Shown piece after piece: positions 2,326 to 9,151 of a stretch of 34,579 nt of DNA. The stretch lies in contig JAQIDC010000046.1 in the NCBI GenBank assembly GCA_027858235.1, positions 1 to 34,579 on the forward strand. Direction: 5' to 3'. Source of the stretch: Patescibacteria group bacterium. GTDB lineage: Bacteria; Patescibacteriota; Patescibacteriia; Patescibacteriales; BM507. Below the pieces are notes generated by a model that saw nothing but the letters and a program-made list of their open reading frames with translations, was not told the origin of the DNA and searched no databases. Made by a program: the position numbers and the translations under genes. Within the stretch, counting starts at the first letter, position 1. Every line of letters starts with the position of its first letter.

Positions 2326-2430
2326 TGGTTTATTAAATTGGGTTCCTTCTACGCCAAGGACCTGGAAGACAAACTTGTAACTATTAGGAAAGTTTTTAAA
2401 AAAATAATAAGAGATGTTAATGACAAATAG
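2326..2430 (+). pseudogene. Possible remnant of a GIY-YIG-type gene
   Basis: A 34-codon open stretch after a TAG reads WFIKLGSFYAKDLEDKLVTI and ends RDVNDK-stop. Its end resembles the last codons of the complete GIY-YIG gene (LSNVNNK-stop), and both stop codons fall at the same place in a 66-bp direct repeat. The segment GSFYAKDLEDKL loosely recalls the FYxGxTxDLxxRL core of the family. There is no start codon and most of the domain is absent. Chance is possible. Confidence 0.2.
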
Positions 2431-2479
2431 TTAATTTGAAAAGTTAACTATTAAATTGTTAATATTCGGGTCGATACTC
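2414..2479 (+). repeat. 66-bp direct repeat, copy 1
   Basis: Matches 2934-2999 at 65 of 66 positions (mismatch at 2422/2942), 520 bases apart. It runs from the last codons of a GIY-YIG frame, through a 9-bp inverted repeat (AATAGTTAA / TTAACTATT), into the first 12 bases of tRNA-Tyr. The copies show that the unit 'GIY-YIG end plus tRNA-Tyr start' was duplicated. Confidence 0.85.
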
Positions 2480-2552
2480 CCGCCTTCTTCGCCAGCTGGC
2501 GAATCCGGACGGGCAGGCAATCGGTCTTTGACCTTTCGGATGTTGATATTAT
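2468..2552 (+). pseudogene. tRNA-Tyr fragment A, interrupted by a GC-rich palindrome
   Basis: The first 12 bases of tRNA-Tyr (GGGTCGATACTC, 2468-2479) match the intact gene and then break into a GC-rich segment. That segment holds the perfect 16-bp palindrome TTCGCCAGCTGGCGAA (2488-2503) followed by TCCGGACGGGCAGGC. The GC content contrasts sharply with the surrounding AT-rich DNA, which suggests an inserted repeat. Nothing of the rest of the tRNA follows, so this copy cannot be functional. Confidence 0.7.
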
Positions 2553-2572: not shown

Positions 2573-2693
2573 GGGTCGATACTCAAGCGGTCAACCATCG
2601 CCTTGGCGAGGTAAACGAGGGCAGACTGCCACCGCCGTGGCGGGGTGTCGCTTTTGAGTGAAATGAAAAAAGTTGCGACATAAATCTGCTGGC
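2573..2693 (+). pseudogene. tRNA-Tyr fragment B, two palindromic inserts and no 3' end
   Basis: Matches the intact tRNA-Tyr from G1 through the D arm (2573-2595), then carries a 20-base insert with a CGCC-TT-GGCG hairpin (2596-2615). It resumes as CGAGGGCAGACTG, and a 52-base insert (2629-2680) falls between anticodon bases 34 and 35. It continues TAAATCTGCTGGC (2681-2693), where the match ends two bases before the GIY-YIG start codon. The T arm and 3' acceptor strand are missing. The second insert can form two successive hairpins: CCGCC/GGCGG and TGTCGC/GCGACA. Confidence 0.8.
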
Positions 2694-2695
2694 AT

Positions 2696-2950
2696 ATGTA
2701 TATCGTTTATATCTTGAAAAGTGAAAATTTTAATAGATATTATATTGGACACACAGCTGATTTAAATGAAAGACTTAAAAAACATAATAACGGTCGTGTA
2801 AAATCAACAAAAGCCTATAAACCATGGTTAGTGATTTATACCGAAGAATACGATACGAAACAAGATGCATACAGAAGAGAGATGAAGATCAAGTCATATA
2901 ATAGCGGTGAAGGGTTTAAAGTATTATTAAGTAATGTTAATAACAAATAG
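2696..2950 (+). CDS. GIY-YIG nuclease domain protein
   Basis: An 84-residue stand-alone GIY-YIG domain. It begins MYIVYILKSENF, with YI and YYIG supplying the two signature strands, then DLNERLKKHNNG (conserved Arg region) and the AYRREMKIKSY helix with the expected glutamate. Small proteins of this class resemble the UvrC nuclease domain and the YhbQ group, and some are mobile homing-type nucleases. Here the start codon lies two bases after a truncated tRNA-Tyr copy, and the stop lies 37 bases before the intact tRNA-Tyr. That placement suggests mobility or repair linked to the tRNA array, but this is inference. No ribosome binding site is evident. The domain call is sure; the cellular role is not. 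Confidence 0.85.
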   Translation: MYIVYILKSENFNRYYIGHTADLNERLKKHNNGRVKSTKAYKPWLVIYTEEYDTKQDAYRREMKIKSYNSGEGFKVLLSNVNNK

Positions 2951-2999
2951 TTAATTTGAAAAGTTAACTATTAAATTGTTAATATTCGGGTCGATACTC
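2934..2999 (+). repeat. 66-bp direct repeat, copy 2
   Basis: Partner of 2414-2479. It covers the last GIY-YIG codons, the 27-base AATAGTTAA/TTAACTATT inverted repeat (2946-2972) and the first 12 bases of the intact tRNA-Tyr. Confidence 0.85.
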
Positions 3000-3069
3000 A
3001 AGCGGTCAACGAGGGCAGACTGTAAATCTGCTGGCTCAGCCTTCGAAAGTTCGAATCTTTCTCGGCCCA
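2988..3069 (+). tRNA. tRNA-Tyr (anticodon GTA)
   Basis: An 82-base class II tRNA. The acceptor stem GGGTCGA pairs with TCGGCCC (one G-U), the D arm contains AAGCGGTCAA, the anticodon stem is GCAGA/TCTGC with anticodon GTA at 3022-3024, the variable arm is long, and the T arm is GAAAG-TTCGAAT-CTTTC with discriminator A. No CCA is encoded. This is the only complete tRNA-Tyr in the window; four broken copies (A and B upstream, D and E downstream) derive from it or from a sister gene. Frames antisense to it read 'RERFELSKAEPADL', a well-known spurious translation. Confidence 0.96.
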
Positions 3070-3074
3070 CAAAG

Positions 3075-3136: not shown

Positions 3137-3237
3137 AACGAGGGCAGACTGCCACCGCCAGCGGGCGGGGTGCCGCCGCGGCGGCATAAATCTGCTGGCT
3201 CAGCCTTCGAAAGTTCGAATCTTTCTCGGCCCACATA
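3137..3237 (+). repeat. tRNA-Tyr fragment D; left copy of a 101-bp perfect direct repeat
   Basis: Contains tRNA-Tyr from the end of the D arm to the discriminator (3137-3233), with a 35-base GC-rich insert (3152-3186) exactly between anticodon bases 34 and 35. The 5' acceptor strand and most of the D arm are absent. I compared it base by base with 9051-9151 and the two are identical over 101 bases, including the insert. The insert folds as two hairpins, CCGCC-AGCG-GGCGG and TGCCGCC-GC-GGCGGCA. It is followed by its own terminator. Confidence 0.9.
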
Positions 3238-3238
3238 T

Positions 3239-3272
3239 AAAATAACTGCAAATTTTAGGCAGTTATTTTTTG
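3239..3272 (+). terminator. Terminator after tRNA-Tyr fragment D
   Basis: Stem AAAATAACTGC / GCAGTTATTTT with a 9-base loop, then a T run. Its sequence differs from the terminator that follows fragment E, so the repeat ends before it. Confidence 0.8.
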
Positions 3273-3300
3273 TTTTACGGAATATGATTTGGAATTAAAT

Positions 3301-3347
3301 AAAAGATATCGATGGTCATTGATATCTTTTTAGTTTAAGAGTATAAT
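3301..3347 (+). promoter_or_regulatory. Promoter and probable ArsR operator of the arsenic/metal operon
   Basis: A 10-bp inverted repeat (AAAAGATATC 3301-3310, GATATCTTTT 3321-3330) overlaps the -35 box TTGATA (3319-3324). TATAAT (3342-3347) lies 17 bases further. An inverted repeat over the -35 box just before an arsR gene is the usual position of an ArsR operator. The -10 box ends nine bases before the ATG, so the message would have almost no leader. The hairpin with a T run could also act as a terminator for upstream transcription. Confidence 0.65.
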
Positions 3348-3356
3348 AAAAAACAT

Positions 3357-3671
3357 ATGGTGGATAAGTGTTGCCTTGATGGCAGTAAAAAACAAAAAGA
3401 ATTGCTTAGTCTTAAAAAGGACTTTGATATACTAAACGATGTTAATCGACTTCGTATTTTGTGCTTGGTTAAAAAACATGACGAGATTTGCGTGTGTGAT
3501 ATTAATGAGTCTTTAGGTCTGTCTCAAAATTTGGTCTCATATCATTTGGGGAAGTTAAAGGACGCCGGTTTTGTCGAGTCAAATAAACAAGGTTCAAGGG
3601 TGCTGTATCGTCAAGGAGTTAAAAAGGCAAAAGAATTTGAGAAAATTATAATCAATTTATTAAATAATTAA
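3357..3671 (+). CDS. arsR: ArsR/SmtB-family metalloregulator
   Basis: A 104-residue winged-helix repressor of the ArsR/SmtB family, which leaves its operator when As(III), Sb(III) or another thiophilic metal binds. The motif ICVCDI (around residues 39-44) is the alpha-3 Cys-x-Cys metal site of the ELCVCDL type. The recognition helix region reads LGLSQNLVSYHLGKLKDAGF. An extra CC pair at residues 5-6 could add ligands. First gene of an operon: the thioredoxin-like gene starts one base after its stop. The inverted repeat over the -35 box upstream suggests autoregulation. With a -10 box only nine bases before the ATG, translation is probably leaderless. Which metal is sensed cannot be read from the sequence. 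Confidence 0.9.
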   Translation: MVDKCCLDGSKKQKELLSLKKDFDILNDVNRLRILCLVKKHDEICVCDINESLGLSQNLVSYHLGKLKDAGFVESNKQGSRVLYRQGVKKAKEFEKIIINLLNN

Positions 3672-3672
3672 T

Positions 3673-3966
3673 ATGAAAATACAAGTTTTAGGTTCTGGTT
3701 GTCCTGCTTGCAAACAGTTGTTTGAAATTACTAAAAAGATGGCAAAAGAATTAAACATTGATACGGAGGTCGAATATATAACTGACGTAAGTAGGATGAT
3801 TGAGATGGGAGTAATGACTAGTCCGGTCCTTGCTATTGACGGCAAACCAGTGTTGATCGGAGGCAATAAAAGAGAGGAGGAAATTAAAGAGGCTATCAGT
3901 GGGACAATAAATAATATTGGAAATAAAAACGGATGTGAGAATTGTTCCTGTGGAGGGGATTGTTAG
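3673..3966 (+). CDS. Small redox-active disulfide protein (MTH895/TM0996 type), Cys-rich tail
   Basis: 97 residues with a thioredoxin-like fold. The N terminus MKIQVLGSGCPACKQL holds the C-P-A-C active site, and TSPVLAIDGKPV supplies the cis-proline segment. The C-terminal tail GCENCSCGGDC adds five cysteines and may bind metal. Members of this family occur beside ArsR-controlled permeases. In ArsEFG-type operons a small thioredoxin-like partner accompanies ArsF, so this could be the ArsE counterpart, which is inference from context. It lies one base after arsR and 23 bases before the permease ATG. A GGAGG run inside its tail lies too close to the next possible TTG start to decide it. Confidence 0.8.
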   Translation: MKIQVLGSGCPACKQLFEITKKMAKELNIDTEVEYITDVSRMIEMGVMTSPVLAIDGKPVLIGGNKREEEIKEAISGTINNIGNKNGCENCSCGGDC

Positions 3967-3989
3967 TCTTAAAATTAAGTTATCTAACT

Positions 3990-4964
3990 ATGGACATTTT
4001 TTACCCTTTAGAATTATTTTCTAAATGGATTACTTATGACATTTTTTCACTGCAAACGGGCCATTTGGCTGGCGCATTGCAGTTTTTTGTTTATGATTCT
4101 TTGAAAATATTTGTTTTAATTATTTTCATTACTCATTTCATGAGTTTGCTAAGATTTTATTTGCCTATTGAGAAATTAAAAGATTTTTTAGCAACACACA
4201 AGTTATTTGGTTTAGACTATTTTTTGGCTACATTATTTGGAGCTCTTACTCCTTTTTGTTCTTGTTCATCTATCCCTTTGTTTATTGGATTTATGGAAGC
4301 ACGAATTCCACTGGGAGTTACTTTTGCATTTTTAATAACATCTCCACTAGTTAATGAAATAGCTATTGGATTGTTTATTGGTATGTTTGGTATGAAAATT
4401 ACCATTATATATGTTACAGCCGGCATTTTAATTGGTATGATTGGTGGATTTGTAATTGGTAAATTAAAAATGGAAAAATATGTAGCTGATTTTGTTTGGA
4501 ATATTAAATCCCAAAAATTAAGTAAAGAAGATGCTAAAAAAATTCCTTGGCTAAAAGTATATAAAATTATCTCCCGTGAAGCCTGGGGAATTAGCAGAAA
4601 AATAATGTTGTATGTTTTAGCGGGGGTGGCTGTCGGTGGGTTAATTCATGGTTATGTTCCGGAAGGATTTTTTGATGTGTATTTGCGGAAGGCTGGTTTT
4701 TGGGGAGTTCCGCTAGCAGTAATATTAGCAGTACCACTGTATTCTAACGCAAGCGGAGTTATCCCAATTATCCAATCATTGGTAGCTAAAGGCGTGCCAA
4801 TTGGAACAGGTTTAGCCTTTATGATGGCTACAGTCGGCCTTTCTTTGCCAGAGGCCATGATACTTAAAAAGGTTTTAAAATGGCAATTACTGGCAACTTT
4901 TTTTGGAATTGTATCAATCGGTATAATTATAATTGGTTATTTGTTTAATTCTTTTATTTTCTAA
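3990..4964 (+). CDS. ArsP/DUF318-type permease (organoarsenical or metal efflux)
   Basis: A 324-residue membrane protein of the PF03773 permease family, which includes the methylarsenite exporter ArsP and the SO_0444-type metal exporters. About eight hydrophobic segments are visible. The hallmark TPFCSCSSIPLFIGF (first third) contains the paired cysteines, and a related VPLYSNASGVIP repeat lies in the second half. I start at ATG 3990; the frame is open further upstream from a TTG at 3942, but that would overlap the preceding gene and add a poorly hydrophobic leader. Third gene of the ars-like operon. The substrate is likely a trivalent or organic arsenical given arsR, ArsF and ArsG neighbours, but a metal cannot be excluded. 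Confidence 0.85.
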   Translation: MDIFYPLELFSKWITYDIFSLQTGHLAGALQFFVYDSLKIFVLIIFITHFMSLLRFYLPIEKLKDFLATHKLFGLDYFLATLFGALTPFCSCSSIPLFIGFMEARIPLGVTFAFLITSPLVNEIAIGLFIGMFGMKITIIYVTAGILIGMIGGFVIGKLKMEKYVADFVWNIKSQKLSKEDAKKIPWLKVYKIISREAWGISRKIMLYVLAGVAVGGLIHGYVPEGFFDVYLRKAGFWGVPLAVILAVPLYSNASGVIPIIQSLVAKGVPIGTGLAFMMATVGLSLPEAMILKKVLKWQLLATFFGIVSIGIIIIGYLFNSFIF

Positions 4965-4995
4965 TTATTAAAAAACATAAAGTTGAAACGTCCTT

Positions 4996-5871
4996 ATGAA
5001 AAATAATATTTTAATCGCCATTATTGTAAATATTTGTATTACAGTTTTTGAGATAGTATTAGGCTTGCTTTCTGGAAGCATGGCCTTGGTGTCTGATGCT
5101 ATACATAACTTTTCTGATGTGGGAGCAATTGCACTTAGTTGGTGGGGTGAAAAAATTTCTCTTCATCCAAGCAATAAACAGAAGACCTATGGCTATAAAA
5201 GAGCTGAAATACTGATAGCATTTATCAATAGCTCTGTTCTCTTAACTGTAATTATTTTTATTCTAATTGAATCAGTCAAAAGATTGCTCAATCCAGTTGA
5301 AGTTGTTGGCTCTACCATATTGATTGTTGCTTTGATTGCCTTGGTCGGTAATAGCATTGCTACATATTTTCTAGAAAAAGATAAACACAAGAACCTTAAC
5401 TTAAAGAGTGCCTGGCTTCATTCCTTGCAAGATGCCTTATTCTCATTGGGGGTAGTGGTAGGAGCGTTGATAATTCATTATACAGGTTGGTTTGTAATTG
5501 ATCCTTTGATATCGATACTCTTAGCGCTTTATATTCTGAAAGAGGTTTTTAATATAATAAAAAAATCAGTTGATGTGTTGATGGAGTCGGTTCCTGCTGA
5601 TGTTGATTCTGATCAGGTGCGTAAAAGTTTAGAAGATATTAAAAATGTAAAAAACATAGCTGATTTACATATTTGGCAGACAGATTCAAATAATAAATTT
5701 TTGAGTGCTCATATTGAAATAGAAAATATTGAAAATGGGGAAAGGAATAAACTACTTCTGAGTATTCAGAATTTGTTAAATGAAAATTATAAAATAAATC
5801 ACACCACAATTCAGTTGGTGTCTATAAATAATTTAGAAAAAAAGATGCTTAATTGCAATCATTGCAACTAG
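4996..5871 (+). CDS. Cation diffusion facilitator (CzcD/ZitB-like metal exporter)
   Basis: 291 residues, six predicted membrane helices and a cytoplasmic C-terminal domain. CDF proteins export Zn, Cd, Co or similar divalent cations in exchange for protons. Helix II holds ALVSDAIHNFSDVGAIALSW with the metal-site HxxxD pattern, helix V holds WLHSLQDALFSLGVVVGA, and the C-terminal domain has the conserved ADLHIWQ. The final residues NCNHCN add a Cys/His tail. Fourth gene of the operon, 31 bases after the permease. Its presence suggests that the operon handles divalent cations as well as arsenic. The cation cannot be predicted with certainty. Confidence 0.92.
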   Translation: MKNNILIAIIVNICITVFEIVLGLLSGSMALVSDAIHNFSDVGAIALSWWGEKISLHPSNKQKTYGYKRAEILIAFINSSVLLTVIIFILIESVKRLLNPVEVVGSTILIVALIALVGNSIATYFLEKDKHKNLNLKSAWLHSLQDALFSLGVVVGALIIHYTGWFVIDPLISILLALYILKEVFNIIKKSVDVLMESVPADVDSDQVRKSLEDIKNVKNIADLHIWQTDSNNKFLSAHIEIENIENGERNKLLLSIQNLLNENYKINHTTIQLVSINNLEKKMLNCNHCN

Positions 5872-5892
5872 AGTATTATAAATAAAATCTTT

Positions 5893-6402
5893 ATGCCCAA
5901 CAAATTAATGTCAATCATTTTACTGCTTTTCTCGGTAGTGACTTTAACTGGCTGTAACAGGCAGATTTCAACTGTTGAGAATGGTGACAAAACTGAACAA
6001 AAACAAGCAGCAGCTACAAGGGATAATTCAGGCACTAGTGAATATCAAGTGTCTAGTGCTGAAATGGTTGCCGAGAAGCTGGAAGTATATTATTTTCATC
6101 GCACTGCTCGTTGTGTGTCTTGTAAAACGATAGGTAGATATACTAAAGAAACAATGGAACAAAAGTATCGCAAGCAAATTGAAGATGGCTTGATTGATTA
6201 TCGTGAGATAAATGTTGAGTTACCAGAGAATAAAGAAATAGCTATTAAATTTAAGGCCTCTGGTTCCTCATTGTTTATTAATAGGATTATTCAAGGCCAA
6301 GACAATATTAAACAGGATGCTAATGTTTGGCGTTTACTTGGTGATGAAGAAAAGTTTAAAAGTTATTTAGAAGCTGTTATTAACTCAAGTCTAGGAATAT
6401 AA
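5893..6402 (+). CDS. ArsF-like thioredoxin-fold lipoprotein
   Basis: 169 residues. It begins with a lipoprotein signal (SIILLLFSVVTLTGC, lipobox LTGC, Cys about residue 21), then a Ser/Thr/Gln-rich linker to residue 65. A thioredoxin-like domain follows, with VYYFHRTARCVSCKTIGRYT carrying a C-x-x-C pair. This matches the family called nitrophenyl compound nitroreductase subunit ArsF in public annotation; ArsEF pairs are reported to reduce nitro-aromatic arsenicals before export by ArsG. Four bases separate it from the ArsG-like permease gene, supporting a functional pair. Assignment rests on the CVSCK region plus context. A general extracytoplasmic disulfide protein is the alternative. Confidence 0.75.
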   Translation: MPNKLMSIILLLFSVVTLTGCNRQISTVENGDKTEQKQAAATRDNSGTSEYQVSSAEMVAEKLEVYYFHRTARCVSCKTIGRYTKETMEQKYRKQIEDGLIDYREINVELPENKEIAIKFKASGSSLFINRIIQGQDNIKQDANVWRLLGDEEKFKSYLEAVINSSLGI

Positions 6403-6406
6403 GAAG

Positions 6407-7120
6407 ATGGATTTTATAAACGCATTAATCGACAATTATAACATTCCGGTGCTTACAGCATTCTTGCTTGGTATTTTAACTTCAATTAGTCCCTGCCCTC
6501 TAGCTACCAACATTACTGCTATCGCCTATATATCGAAAGAACTAAAAACAATTAAGAATACATTGCTCAACGGCTTGTTCTATACATTGGGCAGGGGCAT
6601 TAGTTATACGCTCCTGGCCATTTTGATATATTATGGTATATCAAGTTTTCATATATCAAATATTTTTGAGGGTTGGGGCGATAAAGCGTTGGGGCCAATA
6701 TTGATTATCATTAGTTTAATAATGTTTGGGCTTATAAATATAGATATTGGAGTTAAAAGCGAGAAGATAGAGAGGGTAAAAGAATGGTTATCTCAAAAAG
6801 GATATATCGGCTCACTTTTATTGGGTGTTATTTTTGCTCTAGCATTTTGCCCCTATAGTGGAGTTTTATTTTTTGGGGTTTTAATGCCACTCGTATTGAA
6901 TTCGACAGAAGGCTTTTTGCTGGCTCCGTTTTTTACTCTAGGGACCGGCTTGCCTGTAATTATATTCTCATTTTTAATTGCATTCTCACTGCAGAAAGTT
7001 AGTAAGGCCTTTCAGATAGTACAAAAGGTTGAAAAAGTGATGAGATATCTTGTTGCGAGTGTGTTTATGACAACAGGATTATATTATTTATATATTTTGA
7101 TTAAATATTTACTTGCGTAA
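6407..7120 (+). CDS. ArsG-like / CcdA-DsbD-superfamily permease
   Basis: 237 residues with about six membrane helices in two inverted halves. Each half carries a cysteine-proline motif: TSISPCPLATNI near residue 28 and ALAFCPYSGVLFFG near residue 146. This is the CcdA/DsbD transmembrane fold. With ArsF immediately upstream it best fits the group annotated as aromatic aminobenzylarsenical efflux permease ArsG. The alternative is a pure electron conduit passing reducing equivalents to the ArsF-like lipoprotein. Last gene of the operon. I see no terminator until the hairpin at 7241. Confidence 0.78.
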   Translation: MDFINALIDNYNIPVLTAFLLGILTSISPCPLATNITAIAYISKELKTIKNTLLNGLFYTLGRGISYTLLAILIYYGISSFHISNIFEGWGDKALGPILIIISLIMFGLINIDIGVKSEKIERVKEWLSQKGYIGSLLLGVIFALAFCPYSGVLFFGVLMPLVLNSTEGFLLAPFFTLGTGLPVIIFSFLIAFSLQKVSKAFQIVQKVEKVMRYLVASVFMTTGLYYLYILIKYLLA

Positions 7121-7182
7121 GGCATTATTATTTTATAATACTATAGCGTTGGTTGATAAAATTTCTTGTTGTAGCTTATACT

Positions 7183-7235
7183 ATCCTACTAATTCTTGCA
7201 TATTTAAGTTCCAATCAGACCCAATACGGACCACA
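7183..7235 (+). repeat. Intergenic element, copy 1 of 3
   Basis: Shares the pattern CTAATT-loop-ATTTAAGTTCCAATCAG..CCAATACGG with 8201-8254 and 8929-8982. A 5-6 bp stem with a seven-base loop CTTGCAT (7195-7201) resembles a tRNA anticodon arm with triplet TGC. It ends a few bases before a terminator, as do the other copies. Confidence 0.7.
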
Positions 7236-7240
7236 AATTT

Positions 7241-7273
7241 AAAATCGCCAGAAATGGCGATTTTTGTTATACT
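7241..7273 (+). promoter_or_regulatory. Terminator plus extended -10 promoter module
   Basis: A terminator stem AAAATCGCCA-GAAA-TGGCGATTTTT (7241-7265) runs directly into TGTTATACT (7265-7273), an extended -10 box. The first 31 bases are identical to 10182-10212, where the same module precedes the alpha-glucosidase gene. It both ends upstream transcripts and starts the NIF3 transcript. Confidence 0.7.
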
Positions 7274-7304
7274 TAAATTAGGTTCTAATAATTCAATAAA
7301 AGAT

Positions 7305-8162
7305 ATGAAAGCAAAAGAAATTTATCGAAAACTGGAAAAGGATTTTCATTTGGATCAGTGTAGTGATGATTGGAGTCAAATGGATTTTAACGAATTTATT
7401 TGTGATAATTTCAAGGAGCGTTACATGGGACTGGTTTTGGACAATGCTGAAGAGATCGAAAAAATTTATACAGCAGTTTTTCCTAGCGACAAGGTGCTAA
7501 AAGAGATTCTAGATAAGGATGAAAATAATATATTGATTTTCACACACCATCCATCAACTTGGGACACTACAGTTACTGGGTTTCCATTCAAGGACATGAA
7601 CAAGGACTTGCTTGTAAAATTAAAAGAGAAAAACATTTCTTTATATTGTTTGCATGTTCCATTGGATGCAAATGGGTATTTTTCTACTACTGTTAATTAT
7701 GCAAAAGAGATTGGAGTTAGTTTTGATGAAGATTTTGCAGAATATTACGGAGTGCAAGTTGGGGTGATAGGTGGAACCAATCTTAATTCCCTGAAGGATT
7801 TAGTGAACAGAGTTGAAAAAGCCGTTGGTCATAACGTTAAGTTATTAAAATATGGAAGTGATAATATTGCGAATCAGAAAATAGCTGTTGTGGCTGGGGG
7901 AGGAAATGATCCTGAAATATTAAAAGAACTTTTAGAGAAAGGAATAAAAACATATGTTACAGGCATCGTAAGCGCAGTTGGGGGGTATCCTCCAGCAGTA
8001 GAATTTAATAGTCTTGCAAAAGAAAATAAGATAAATATTATAGGTTCGTCACATTATTCAAGTGAGAAATTTGCATGTATAAAAATGTTACACTATTTTG
8101 AAGCGCTTGGAATCAAGGCTTCGTTTGTGGAAGATAAACCAGATCTTGGTGATATAGTTTAA
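7305..8162 (+). CDS. NIF3/DUF34-family protein
   Basis: 285 residues. The NIF3 family (also annotated GTP cyclohydrolase 1 type 2) binds a dinuclear metal centre; its physiological role is unsettled. Visible motifs are ILIFTHHPSTWD (HHP metal ligands), LYCLHVPLDANGYF and the C-terminal GSSHYSSEKFA that supplies the last ligands. I start at ATG 7305, just after the promoter at 7265-7273. The frame is open to 7113, but that extension crosses the repeat and terminator above and is not coding. The gene lies inside the 101-bp repeat boundaries, after the arsenic operon but in its own transcript. Confidence 0.88.
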   Translation: MKAKEIYRKLEKDFHLDQCSDDWSQMDFNEFICDNFKERYMGLVLDNAEEIEKIYTAVFPSDKVLKEILDKDENNILIFTHHPSTWDTTVTGFPFKDMNKDLLVKLKEKNISLYCLHVPLDANGYFSTTVNYAKEIGVSFDEDFAEYYGVQVGVIGGTNLNSLKDLVNRVEKAVGHNVKLLKYGSDNIANQKIAVVAGGGNDPEILKELLEKGIKTYVTGIVSAVGGYPPAVEFNSLAKENKINIIGSSHYSSEKFACIKMLHYFEALGIKASFVEDKPDLGDIV

Positions 8163-8200
8163 TTGTTTAATATATCATAATTATTGGTTAGTATTTTGTT

Positions 8201-8254
8201 CCATTCCGCTAATTCTCGCATAATTAGGTTCCAATCAGCTCCAATACGGCGACA
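8201..8254 (+). repeat. Intergenic element, copy 2 of 3
   Basis: Aligned without gaps to 8929-8982 (offset 728) with few changes. The stem CTAATT/AATTAG pairs here where copy 3 has TTAATT/AATTAA, which is compensatory change at the closing pair. The seven-base loop is CTCGCAT, triplet CGC at 8217-8219. Confidence 0.75.
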
Positions 8255-8257
8255 CGG

Positions 8258-8298
8258 AAAACAGAACATTTTTATGTTCTGTTTTTATTTGTTATAAT
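8258..8298 (+). promoter_or_regulatory. Terminator plus extended -10 promoter for the methyltransferase-like gene
   Basis: Stem AAAACAGAACA / TGTTCTGTTTT (8258-8285) with T run, followed after TTTATT by TGTTATAAT (8290-8298), 26 bases before the ATG at 8325. Same arrangement as at 7241 but with a different hairpin sequence. Confidence 0.7.
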
Positions 8299-8324
8299 GT
8301 AGTATACTAAAATAATTTTAATAT

Positions 8325-8909
8325 ATGGCATTATCAAAATATCACAATAAATATTCTAGTCTTATTGATGAAGAAATTTTGAATAGAATTGAAGCAAAAG
8401 AAGATGAGTTAATTGAAATTTTCAAGAAAGTTTCTCTTGATAATAATAACAACCTTGCCAGAGTGGCTGTTTTGGGTTGTGCTGACAAGAGATTTGTTTC
8501 AGCGCACAAGATATTGTTTGAAAAAATATTAAATAGAAAAGTAGACCTTACCACATTTGATATTTCGACAGATCATTTAGAAGGAGAGACTAATGTCATT
8601 CAGCATGATTGCACACTTCCATTACCTGGGTCGCTCTATGATGTAACTTTTGGTCATGTAGTTTTAAAATTTATTGAAACAGGTAAACAGTATGATTTTT
8701 TAAAAAATTCTTATGACGCTCTAAATCTAGGTGGTATTGCAATACATGTTTTTGATAATGAGGAAATTAGTTCAGAAAATGAAAAGTTATCAGATGGCTA
8801 TTGGCGTGTCCCGTTAGATGTTTGGAAAACAAAGCTAACAGAGGAAGAAATTCAATTTATGGAAATAGATTTGAAATATGGTCCTGCTCTTGTTATTTTA
8901 AAGCGTTAA
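8325..8909 (+). CDS. Putative SAM-dependent methyltransferase
   Basis: 194 residues with a Rossmann-like plan. RVAVLGCADKRFV (around residue 46) can serve as motif I, LTTFDIS as the acidic post-I strand, GSLYDVTFGHVVLKFI as motif IV, and NLGGIAIHVFDNEE as motif VI. The glycine loop is degenerate (GCADKR in place of GxGxG), so binding of S-adenosylmethionine is not assured. It has its own promoter and no obvious partner. Position between two copies of the intergenic element and inside the 101-bp repeat boundaries suggests it belongs to the same acquired block. Substrate unknown. Confidence 0.5.
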   Translation: MALSKYHNKYSSLIDEEILNRIEAKEDELIEIFKKVSLDNNNNLARVAVLGCADKRFVSAHKILFEKILNRKVDLTTFDISTDHLEGETNVIQHDCTLPLPGSLYDVTFGHVVLKFIETGKQYDFLKNSYDALNLGGIAIHVFDNEEISSENEKLSDGYWRVPLDVWKTKLTEEEIQFMEIDLKYGPALVILKR

Positions 8910-8928
8910 TCTCTATAAATAATATGTG

Positions 8929-8982
8929 CCATTCCGTTAATTCTAGCATAATTAAGTTCCAATCAGCTCCAATACGGCCCAC
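8929..8982 (+). repeat. Intergenic element, copy 3 of 3
   Basis: Third copy, ending CGGCCCACAAAT, which resembles the CGGCCCACA end of the tRNA-Tyr copies. Stem TTAATT/AATTAA closes a seven-base loop CTAGCAT (triplet AGC at 8945-8947). Followed after five bases by a terminator. Confidence 0.75.
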
Positions 8983-8987
8983 AAATG

Positions 8988-9016
8988 AAGAACTCCAAAA
9001 AAAGGAGTTCTTTTTG
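8988..9016 (+). terminator. Intrinsic terminator
   Basis: Stem AAGAACTCC / GGAGTTCTT with an all-A loop, followed by TTTTG. Ends the methyltransferase-like transcript. Confidence 0.8.
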
Positions 9017-9050
9017 TTTTTGAAAATCAATCATTGTATCTTGTAGAATA

Positions 9051-9151
9051 AACGAGGGCAGACTGCCACCGCCAGCGGGCGGGGTGCCGCCGCGGCGGCA
9101 TAAATCTGCTGGCTCAGCCTTCGAAAGTTCGAATCTTTCTCGGCCCACATA
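9051..9151 (+). repeat. tRNA-Tyr fragment E; right copy of the 101-bp perfect direct repeat
   Basis: Identical to 3137-3237. The 35-base two-hairpin insert occupies 9066-9100 and the tRNA 3' part ends at 9147. The upstream flank (TTGTAGAAT) differs from that of copy D. No 5' acceptor strand is present, so no functional tRNA can form. Confidence 0.9.

Follow-up and report, generated by a model that had tools for sequence, protein, structure and literature searches.

How does a bacterium come to carry tRNA genes that are interrupted inside the anticodon? The question is raised by a stretch of 34,579 nucleotides (hereafter the window) from a contig of a Patescibacteria group bacterium, in which three copies of tRNA-Tyr, designated B, D and E, hold a short insert that separates anticodon bases 34 and 35 (canonical numbering). 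A sequence-only reading had located these inserts at positions which, like their sequences, are correct; the intact copy C confirms them, placing the break between raw nt 35 and 36 of the tRNA, equivalent to canonical 34 and 35. The hairpins that form the inserts are one part of a larger element, in which the sequence shows the host tRNA to be split at a fixed loop position and to be accompanied by the hairpins, often a short remnant from the 3' side of the tRNA, a nuclease gene (a GIY-YIG ORF of ~80-90 aa) and a complete second copy on the same strand.

Interrupted tRNA-Tyr copies in the window

The features of the locus are collected in Table 1. The inserts measure 35-52 nt, and their junctions, marked here by slashes, read ACTG/CCACCGCCGTGGCGGGGTGTCGC...GCGACA/TAAATC in copy B and ACTG/CCACCGCCAGCGGGCGGGGTGCCGCCGCGGCGGCA/TAAATC in copies D and E. 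A group I intron, which had been set aside earlier on grounds of size, was likewise rejected here, as no covariance-model (Rfam) intron hit was obtained in the window, the inserts are of the above length and an intact copy stands alongside. Copies D and E are identical over 99 of 99 nt and therefore are not independent, representing one event or a recent copy; both are 3' fragments that begin near tRNA nt 21 and therefore cannot be functional tRNAs. Copy C is the sole complete tRNA-Tyr found in the window's genome, where double-hairpin units were seen only in B, D and E, at one locus. The palindrome within the 5' part of copy B (2596-2613) has AAC on its flanks.

Table 1. Features of the tRNA-Tyr locus in the window
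Feature	Position	Strand	Remark
Remnant of a putative older round	2388-2480	+	Repeats 2908-3000 (GIY-YIG ORF end, tRNA leader, tRNA-Tyr nt 1-12)
tRNA-Tyr fragment A	2468-2479	+	tRNA-Tyr nt 1-12, inside remnant 2388-2480
Copy B, 5' part	2573-2628	+	tRNA-Tyr nt 1-35; 18-nt palindrome after nt 23
Copy B, two-hairpin insert	2629-2680	+	Between canonical anticodon bases 34 and 35
tRNA-Tyr nt 36-48 remnant	2681-2693	+	Anticodon arm, 3' side; 3' of copy B hairpins
GIY-YIG endonuclease ORF	2696-2950	+	84 aa; PF01541, 8e-17
Copy C, intact tRNA-Tyr (GTA)	2988-3070	+	ARAGORN; Rfam 52.7 bits
Copy D, 5' piece	3137-3151	+	tRNA nt 21-35
Copy D, two-hairpin insert	3152-3186	+	35 nt
Copy D, 3' half of tRNA-Tyr	3187-3235	+	Own terminator
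Stretch separating identical copies D and E	3240-9046		5.8 kb; ArsR, thioredoxin, ArsP permease, cation efflux, DsbD-like, NIF3, other genes
Copy E, 5' piece	9051-9065	+	tRNA nt 21-35
Copy E, two-hairpin insert	9066-9100	+	Same as copy D insert
Copy E, 3' half	9101-9149	+	

The GIY-YIG ORF is placed between copies B and C and starts two bases past the tRNA remnant. Its catalytic residues Y5, Y16, G18, R26, H30, N31 and E62 were invariant in the 12 compared, the closest solved structures are those of UPF0213 single-domain proteins (PDB 1zg2 and 1ywl), and no family was obtained for it from NCBIfam or PHROGs.

The tRNA-Tyr locus seems to have been struck more than once, because the stretch at 2388-2480 repeats the ORF end, the leader and tRNA nt 1-12. 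The two stretches form a 90-nt direct repeat of 90% identity, of which the half nearest the break shows no differences. Fragment A is interrupted after nt 12 by a REP-like palindrome (CGCCAGCTGGCG and adjoining sequence, 2480-2521).

The genes between copies D and E are possibly cargo captured at the same site. Three repeats of 50-66 nt (7190-7238, 8197-8250 and 8925-8990), 90-93% alike and each followed by its own terminator, are absent elsewhere in the window's genome; two of them run into a tRNA-end-like CCACA, and the three are possibly joints of earlier insertions. At the end of the window, positions 34242-34559 encode a Y1 (IS200-type) transposase domain.

A relative from the same genus (G001) offers a view of the locus in another state. 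There, the phosphorylase encoded upstream of the window's tRNA region has a counterpart (79% identical), and 104 nt beyond that gene comes a single unbroken tRNA-Tyr; no ORF, hairpins or 5' fragments were found at the matching locus, nor were the genes that separate D and E in the window. Farther along, 3' of the single tRNA-Tyr, is a short fragment of a tRNA 3' end. Over ~45 AT-rich bases, a comparison with an inadequate shuffle null, the sequence 3' of copy E is similar to the terminator of this single tRNA-Tyr, and the flank of copy D resembles the terminator after the tRNA fragment of the relative. On account of these short, suggestive resemblances copy E may hold the original 3' half, which suggests that 6.5 kb, including metal and redox genes, could lie inside one ancestral tRNA gene.

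Hairpins, nuclease and tRNA in related genomes

The consensus of the double hairpin is CCACCGCC-loop-GGCGGGG, then TGCCGCC-loop-GGCGGCA, with loops that vary freely and many variants among related loci. It is comparative covariation, rather than the folding energy of single inserts, which is unexceptional against shuffled GC-rich DNA (z of -1.4 and -1.1), that shows the structure to be real. Among 19 distinct inserts, mostly from other genomes, 96% of cells are paired and five pairs are altered on both sides; none of 500 shuffles reached as high and slid controls gave 0-2. The earlier suggestion of two successive GC-rich hairpins in which structure was kept over sequence is thereby borne out, and the covariation, extending across related genomes, clearly goes beyond recent duplicates such as D and E.

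Dispersed hairpin units were sought by pattern. With a CTG prefix the unit pattern was matched 15 times, in 13 of 380 genomes, and its reverse was matched nowhere, so that the unit is not a chance occurrence; no exact match to the double-hairpin pattern was found in viral contigs. A scan for any insert in GCAGACTG...TAAATCTGC was too loose, the screening of 118 listed stretches leaving one real case, L108, which became the starting point of the wider search.

Across order and class, in dozens of related genomes and for many tRNAs, the same single-strand order recurs: a 5' tRNA fragment, GC hairpin(s), a GIY-YIG ORF and an intact copy of the same tRNA. The sample consisted of 141 unique homologous ORFs, obtained mostly by protein searches blind to tRNAs, with a few loci fetched via the hairpin pattern. 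An intact same-strand tRNA lies at most 150 nt downstream of 87 of them and upstream of 17, and an opposite-strand tRNA beside none of the 141. A tRNA lies no more than 60 nt from 79 of the ORFs, and upstream of 64 of these is a cognate 5' fragment, i.e. one that fits this tRNA better than it fits any tRNA for a different amino acid. The 130 nt preceding the ORF contain a GC hairpin in 87.5% of these 64 cases, a proportion that falls to 34% for the ORFs without a tRNA and to 15.8% for the 1364 control windows.

On examination of individual loci, the layout was seen in several forms. In tRNA-Glu elements the ORF reads into the tRNA, ends in ...SSIG and takes the D-loop TAG as its stop, and in L183 it likewise reads into the tRNA and stops at the anticodon-loop TAA. 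Hairpin-bearing 3' fragments occur in the window and in L108, L183 and L230-L232, lying 3' of the intact copy in L183, L232, L108 and the window, and a mirror layout of intact tRNA, ORF and hairpin plus 3' fragment is found in L228, L187 and L191. The restored tRNA is often identical to the sacrificed fragment and has diverged from it in L182, L200 and L223.

Some loci hold parts of this arrangement. Four tRNA-Thr loci (L370, L404, L415 and L372) have a hairpin-bearing 5' fragment, then ~30 nt and an intact tRNA-Thr, with no ORF, and are possible nuclease-less versions. In L186, L188, L218, L215 and L225, GIY-YIG ORFs occur away from tRNAs, and those of L186, L218, L215 and L225 are flanked by inverted repeats, e.g. 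CCCCGCACCTT...AAGGTGCGGGG or CCCCCACACC...GTGTGGGGG. ORFs away from tRNAs can also lie inside hairpins, as do those of L216 and L222 within 16S rRNA genes, bounded by inverted repeats, at sites that we read as the 3' h44 region and the 5' V1 region.

The breaks fall at few places: of 65 fragment break points, 28 lie in the anticodon loop, almost always at canonical position 34 or 35, and another 28 in the D loop. When TGCCGC-type units were sought with no flank requirement, about 20 of 22, by a hand tally of rows, sat in tRNA anticodon loops; their hosts are tRNA-Tyr, Thr(TGT), Thr(CGT) and Leu, and nearly all sites read G/TAA. Sister units of the TCCCGC type are dispersed outside tRNAs in some genomes, with seven matches each in G193 and G180, and occur at several sites of one genome in G193, G180 and G212. 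A preference for anticodon loops, as the sequence-only reading had supposed, thus emerges from both the pattern searches and the break points, with D loops and many other tRNAs used too; scatter without tRNA preference does not describe the TGCCGC type and describes the TCCCGC type in part.

A homing endonuclease gene moves between hosts and keeps its site. The spread of the nuclease fits such a gene, since its lineages track tRNA type and not host family. In a tree of 89 sequences, the support of which is limited by the short protein, tRNA type requires 33 changes, against a mean of 58.8 when shuffled and with none of 200 shuffles as low, and host family 74, against 76.9 when shuffled and with 17 of 200 shuffles as low. 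The tRNA-Tyr clade brings together genomes of different families and orders, and a branch close to it is formed by L108, a tRNA-Thr element from a Candidatus Magasanikbacteria genome.

A proposed mechanism and its alternatives

We consider it probable that the locus carries a free-standing GIY-YIG homing element, which would target tRNA genes at the anticodon or D loop and restore the gene that it breaks; its cleavage and mobility are what we infer from the arrangement of the sequences. The nuclease would cut within the loop of a tRNA gene that is still uninterrupted, for tRNA-Tyr at canonical 34/35, and the tRNA halves would serve as homology arms in repair from a donor. The left end (nt 1-35) would pair with the 5' fragment of the donor, after which hairpins, ORF and tRNA would be copied, and the layout B-ORF-C would result if the right end (nt 36-84) paired with the intact copy of the donor. 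Alternatively, the right end may copy the hairpins and a few bases via the 36-48 remnant and then be joined, giving hairpin-bearing 3' fragments such as D and E; failed or one-sided repair would leave fragments of this kind, sometimes with neighbouring genes trapped. The double hairpin at the break most likely blocks cutting or the use and processing of the sacrificed copy as a tRNA. The restored copy would act as a spare part that keeps the cell alive, and therefore no splicing would be needed.

Several observations count against the homing-element reading. Forty-four of the 141 ORFs have no nearby tRNA, the nt 36-48 remnant or its like is missing in some cases, and the tRNA-Ala elements L302, L304, L292 and L330 have a short TCCCGA stub and no hairpin. 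The GIY-YIG protein scarcely exceeds its catalytic domain. In addition, the restored tRNA retains an uninterrupted site, often the same as that of the sacrificed copy, which raises the matter of self-cutting.

A wider generalisation is more tentative, and we regard it as possible though doubtful. Loop-recognising mobile elements may be widespread in bacteria, recognising the loops of stem-loops (anticodon and D loops of tRNAs, rRNA helices, terminators and their own hairpins) and not a long sequence. Their nuclease would be a minimal GIY-YIG enzyme, invaded loops would be marked by a double hairpin that can move independently of the gene, and a spare half, not a self-splicing intron, would save the essential RNA genes.

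It is unlikely, in our judgement, that the double hairpin is itself the mobile entity, i.e. a bacterial counterpart of the mitochondrial double-hairpin elements (DHE) that enters the loops of tRNAs, terminator-like palindromes and its own hairpins, with the GIY-YIG enzyme cutting in trans or hitchhiking. The dispersal of TCCCGC-type units at many non-tRNA sites in G193 and G180 agrees with this, as do a second unit nested within the hairpin 1 loop of L183 and L269 and the ORF-less units beside intact tRNA-Thr in L370, L404 and L415. Furthermore, 7 of 35 non-tRNA sites of the sister type lie within host stems of >=5 bp (15 bp in L387) against 3% for cross-paired flanks; some of the seven, however, are near-copies from related sites. 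TGCCGC-type units nevertheless keep largely to tRNA loops, and unrelated hairpin sequences fill the same slot by the ORF, where a function at the break site fits better.

The hairpins stand directly upstream of the ORF start codon, and upstream RNA hairpins control homing endonuclease genes of T4, including segB (PMC2988022). Hence a role at the RNA level was considered, in which the hairpin-bearing 5' fragment would serve the nuclease mRNA as a leader, controlling or stabilising it, and would block processing of the broken tRNA, the tRNA context providing a promoter. We hold this to be quite improbable, given that D and E, which are 3' fragments, and the ORF-less units have these hairpins too; the covariation of the hairpin pairs, which accords with such a role, does not separate a DNA cruciform from RNA.

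A REP-like nature had been suggested by the sequence-only reading, and it is retained insofar as TCCCGC-type units are dispersed outside tRNAs. As a full account, REP/REPIN palindromes moved by Y1 (RAYT) transposases and landing by chance in tRNA pseudogenes appear very improbable. The unit does come close to one hairpin repeated in inverted orientation, and several host genomes are rich in Y1 genes, with 11 matches in that of the window (G000); three draft genomes (G025, G115 and G435) nonetheless have units and no Y1 match, and no GTAG-like tag was seen. Placement is fixed to loops and not scattered across fragments, the association with GIY-YIG ORFs is unexpected for such palindromes, and the extragenic placement without gene preference that they would show is at odds with the concentration of the TGCCGC type in tRNA loops.

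Plain tandem duplication of tRNAs at a recombination hot spot, followed by decay and involving no mobile element, would suit the frequent duplication and integration at tRNA loci and the layered appearance of fragments A-E. It is contradicted by the 87 to 0 strand bias, the cognate fragments, the fixed loop break points and the nuclease tree that tracks tRNA type, and we give it hardly any weight. A short tRNA intron removed by splicing is barely credible, for all that the 34/35 position is that of some bacterial tRNA introns, because copies D and E are without the 5' third of the tRNA, an intact copy lies beside the interrupted one in the cases inspected and no known intron family matches.

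Comparison with known systems

Mobile elements in bacterial tRNA genes are usually self-splicing introns or integrases that rebuild the end of the gene. The element analysed here seems to represent a mobile-element family of essential tRNA genes that is as yet undescribed and for which splicing-out would be unnecessary. If true, it would represent a third way, whereby a nuclease gene breaks the tRNA at a loop, retains the hairpin-marked half and supplies a new copy. Occurring at many tRNA species in a large group of small-genome bacteria, it would also account for the clusters of tRNA fragments found there. No account of the layout was found in the papers covered on GIY-YIG, tRNA and CPR, which came mainly from open-access journals.

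In CPR bacteria, GIY-YIG ORFs are reported in non-intron rRNA insertions, mostly at stem-loops, and were judged not to spread by homing, tRNA being unmentioned (PMC11270868). These insertions share host group and enzyme family with the present element, L216 and L222 being such cases, and our reading bears on the published view that the genes in them do not home. The UPF0213 proteins of known structure are annotated as hypothetical, and no tRNA-splitting context was recorded for them here.

The DHE of fungal mitochondria, which lie in rRNA genes and spacers and are thought to be mobile, likewise consist of two adjacent GC-rich hairpins with a structure that is kept (PMC10085805, PMC4618339). 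Unlike them, the unit here is bacterial, sits mostly in tRNA loops and is linked to a nuclease, so that the likeness is one of anatomy. The double hairpin works like a DHE and is not a member, because it belongs to bacterial genomes and not to fungal or other mitochondrial DNA.

In enzyme and neighbour, the nearest analogue would be SegB of T-even phages, which is linked to tRNA-Tyr amplification (PMC2988022, PMC13096335). Both are small GIY-YIG enzymes that adjoin tRNA genes and spread without an intron. SegB, however, lies between intact phage tRNAs, and neither a sacrificed tRNA fragment nor a double hairpin was found described in those reports.

In logic, the nearest analogue appears to be the fungal mitochondrial mobile ORF that brings a replacement gene part, as in Allomyces atp6 and Glomus atp6, atp9, cox2 and nad3, the one in atp9 encoding a GIY-YIG enzyme (PMC3630166). 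Common to both are an endonuclease ORF in an essential gene, a duplicated part that restores the gene and a displaced part that remains. The fungal cases concern protein genes with replaced C-terminal parts in mitochondria, whereas the element here involves bacterial tRNA genes, usually duplicates the 5' part, uses RNA-loop sites and has a double hairpin at the break. The element is filed with free-standing homing elements, and not with DHE, REP or introns, and it would provide a bacterial counterpart to two mitochondrial puzzles, namely double-hairpin elements and gene-restoring mobile ORFs.
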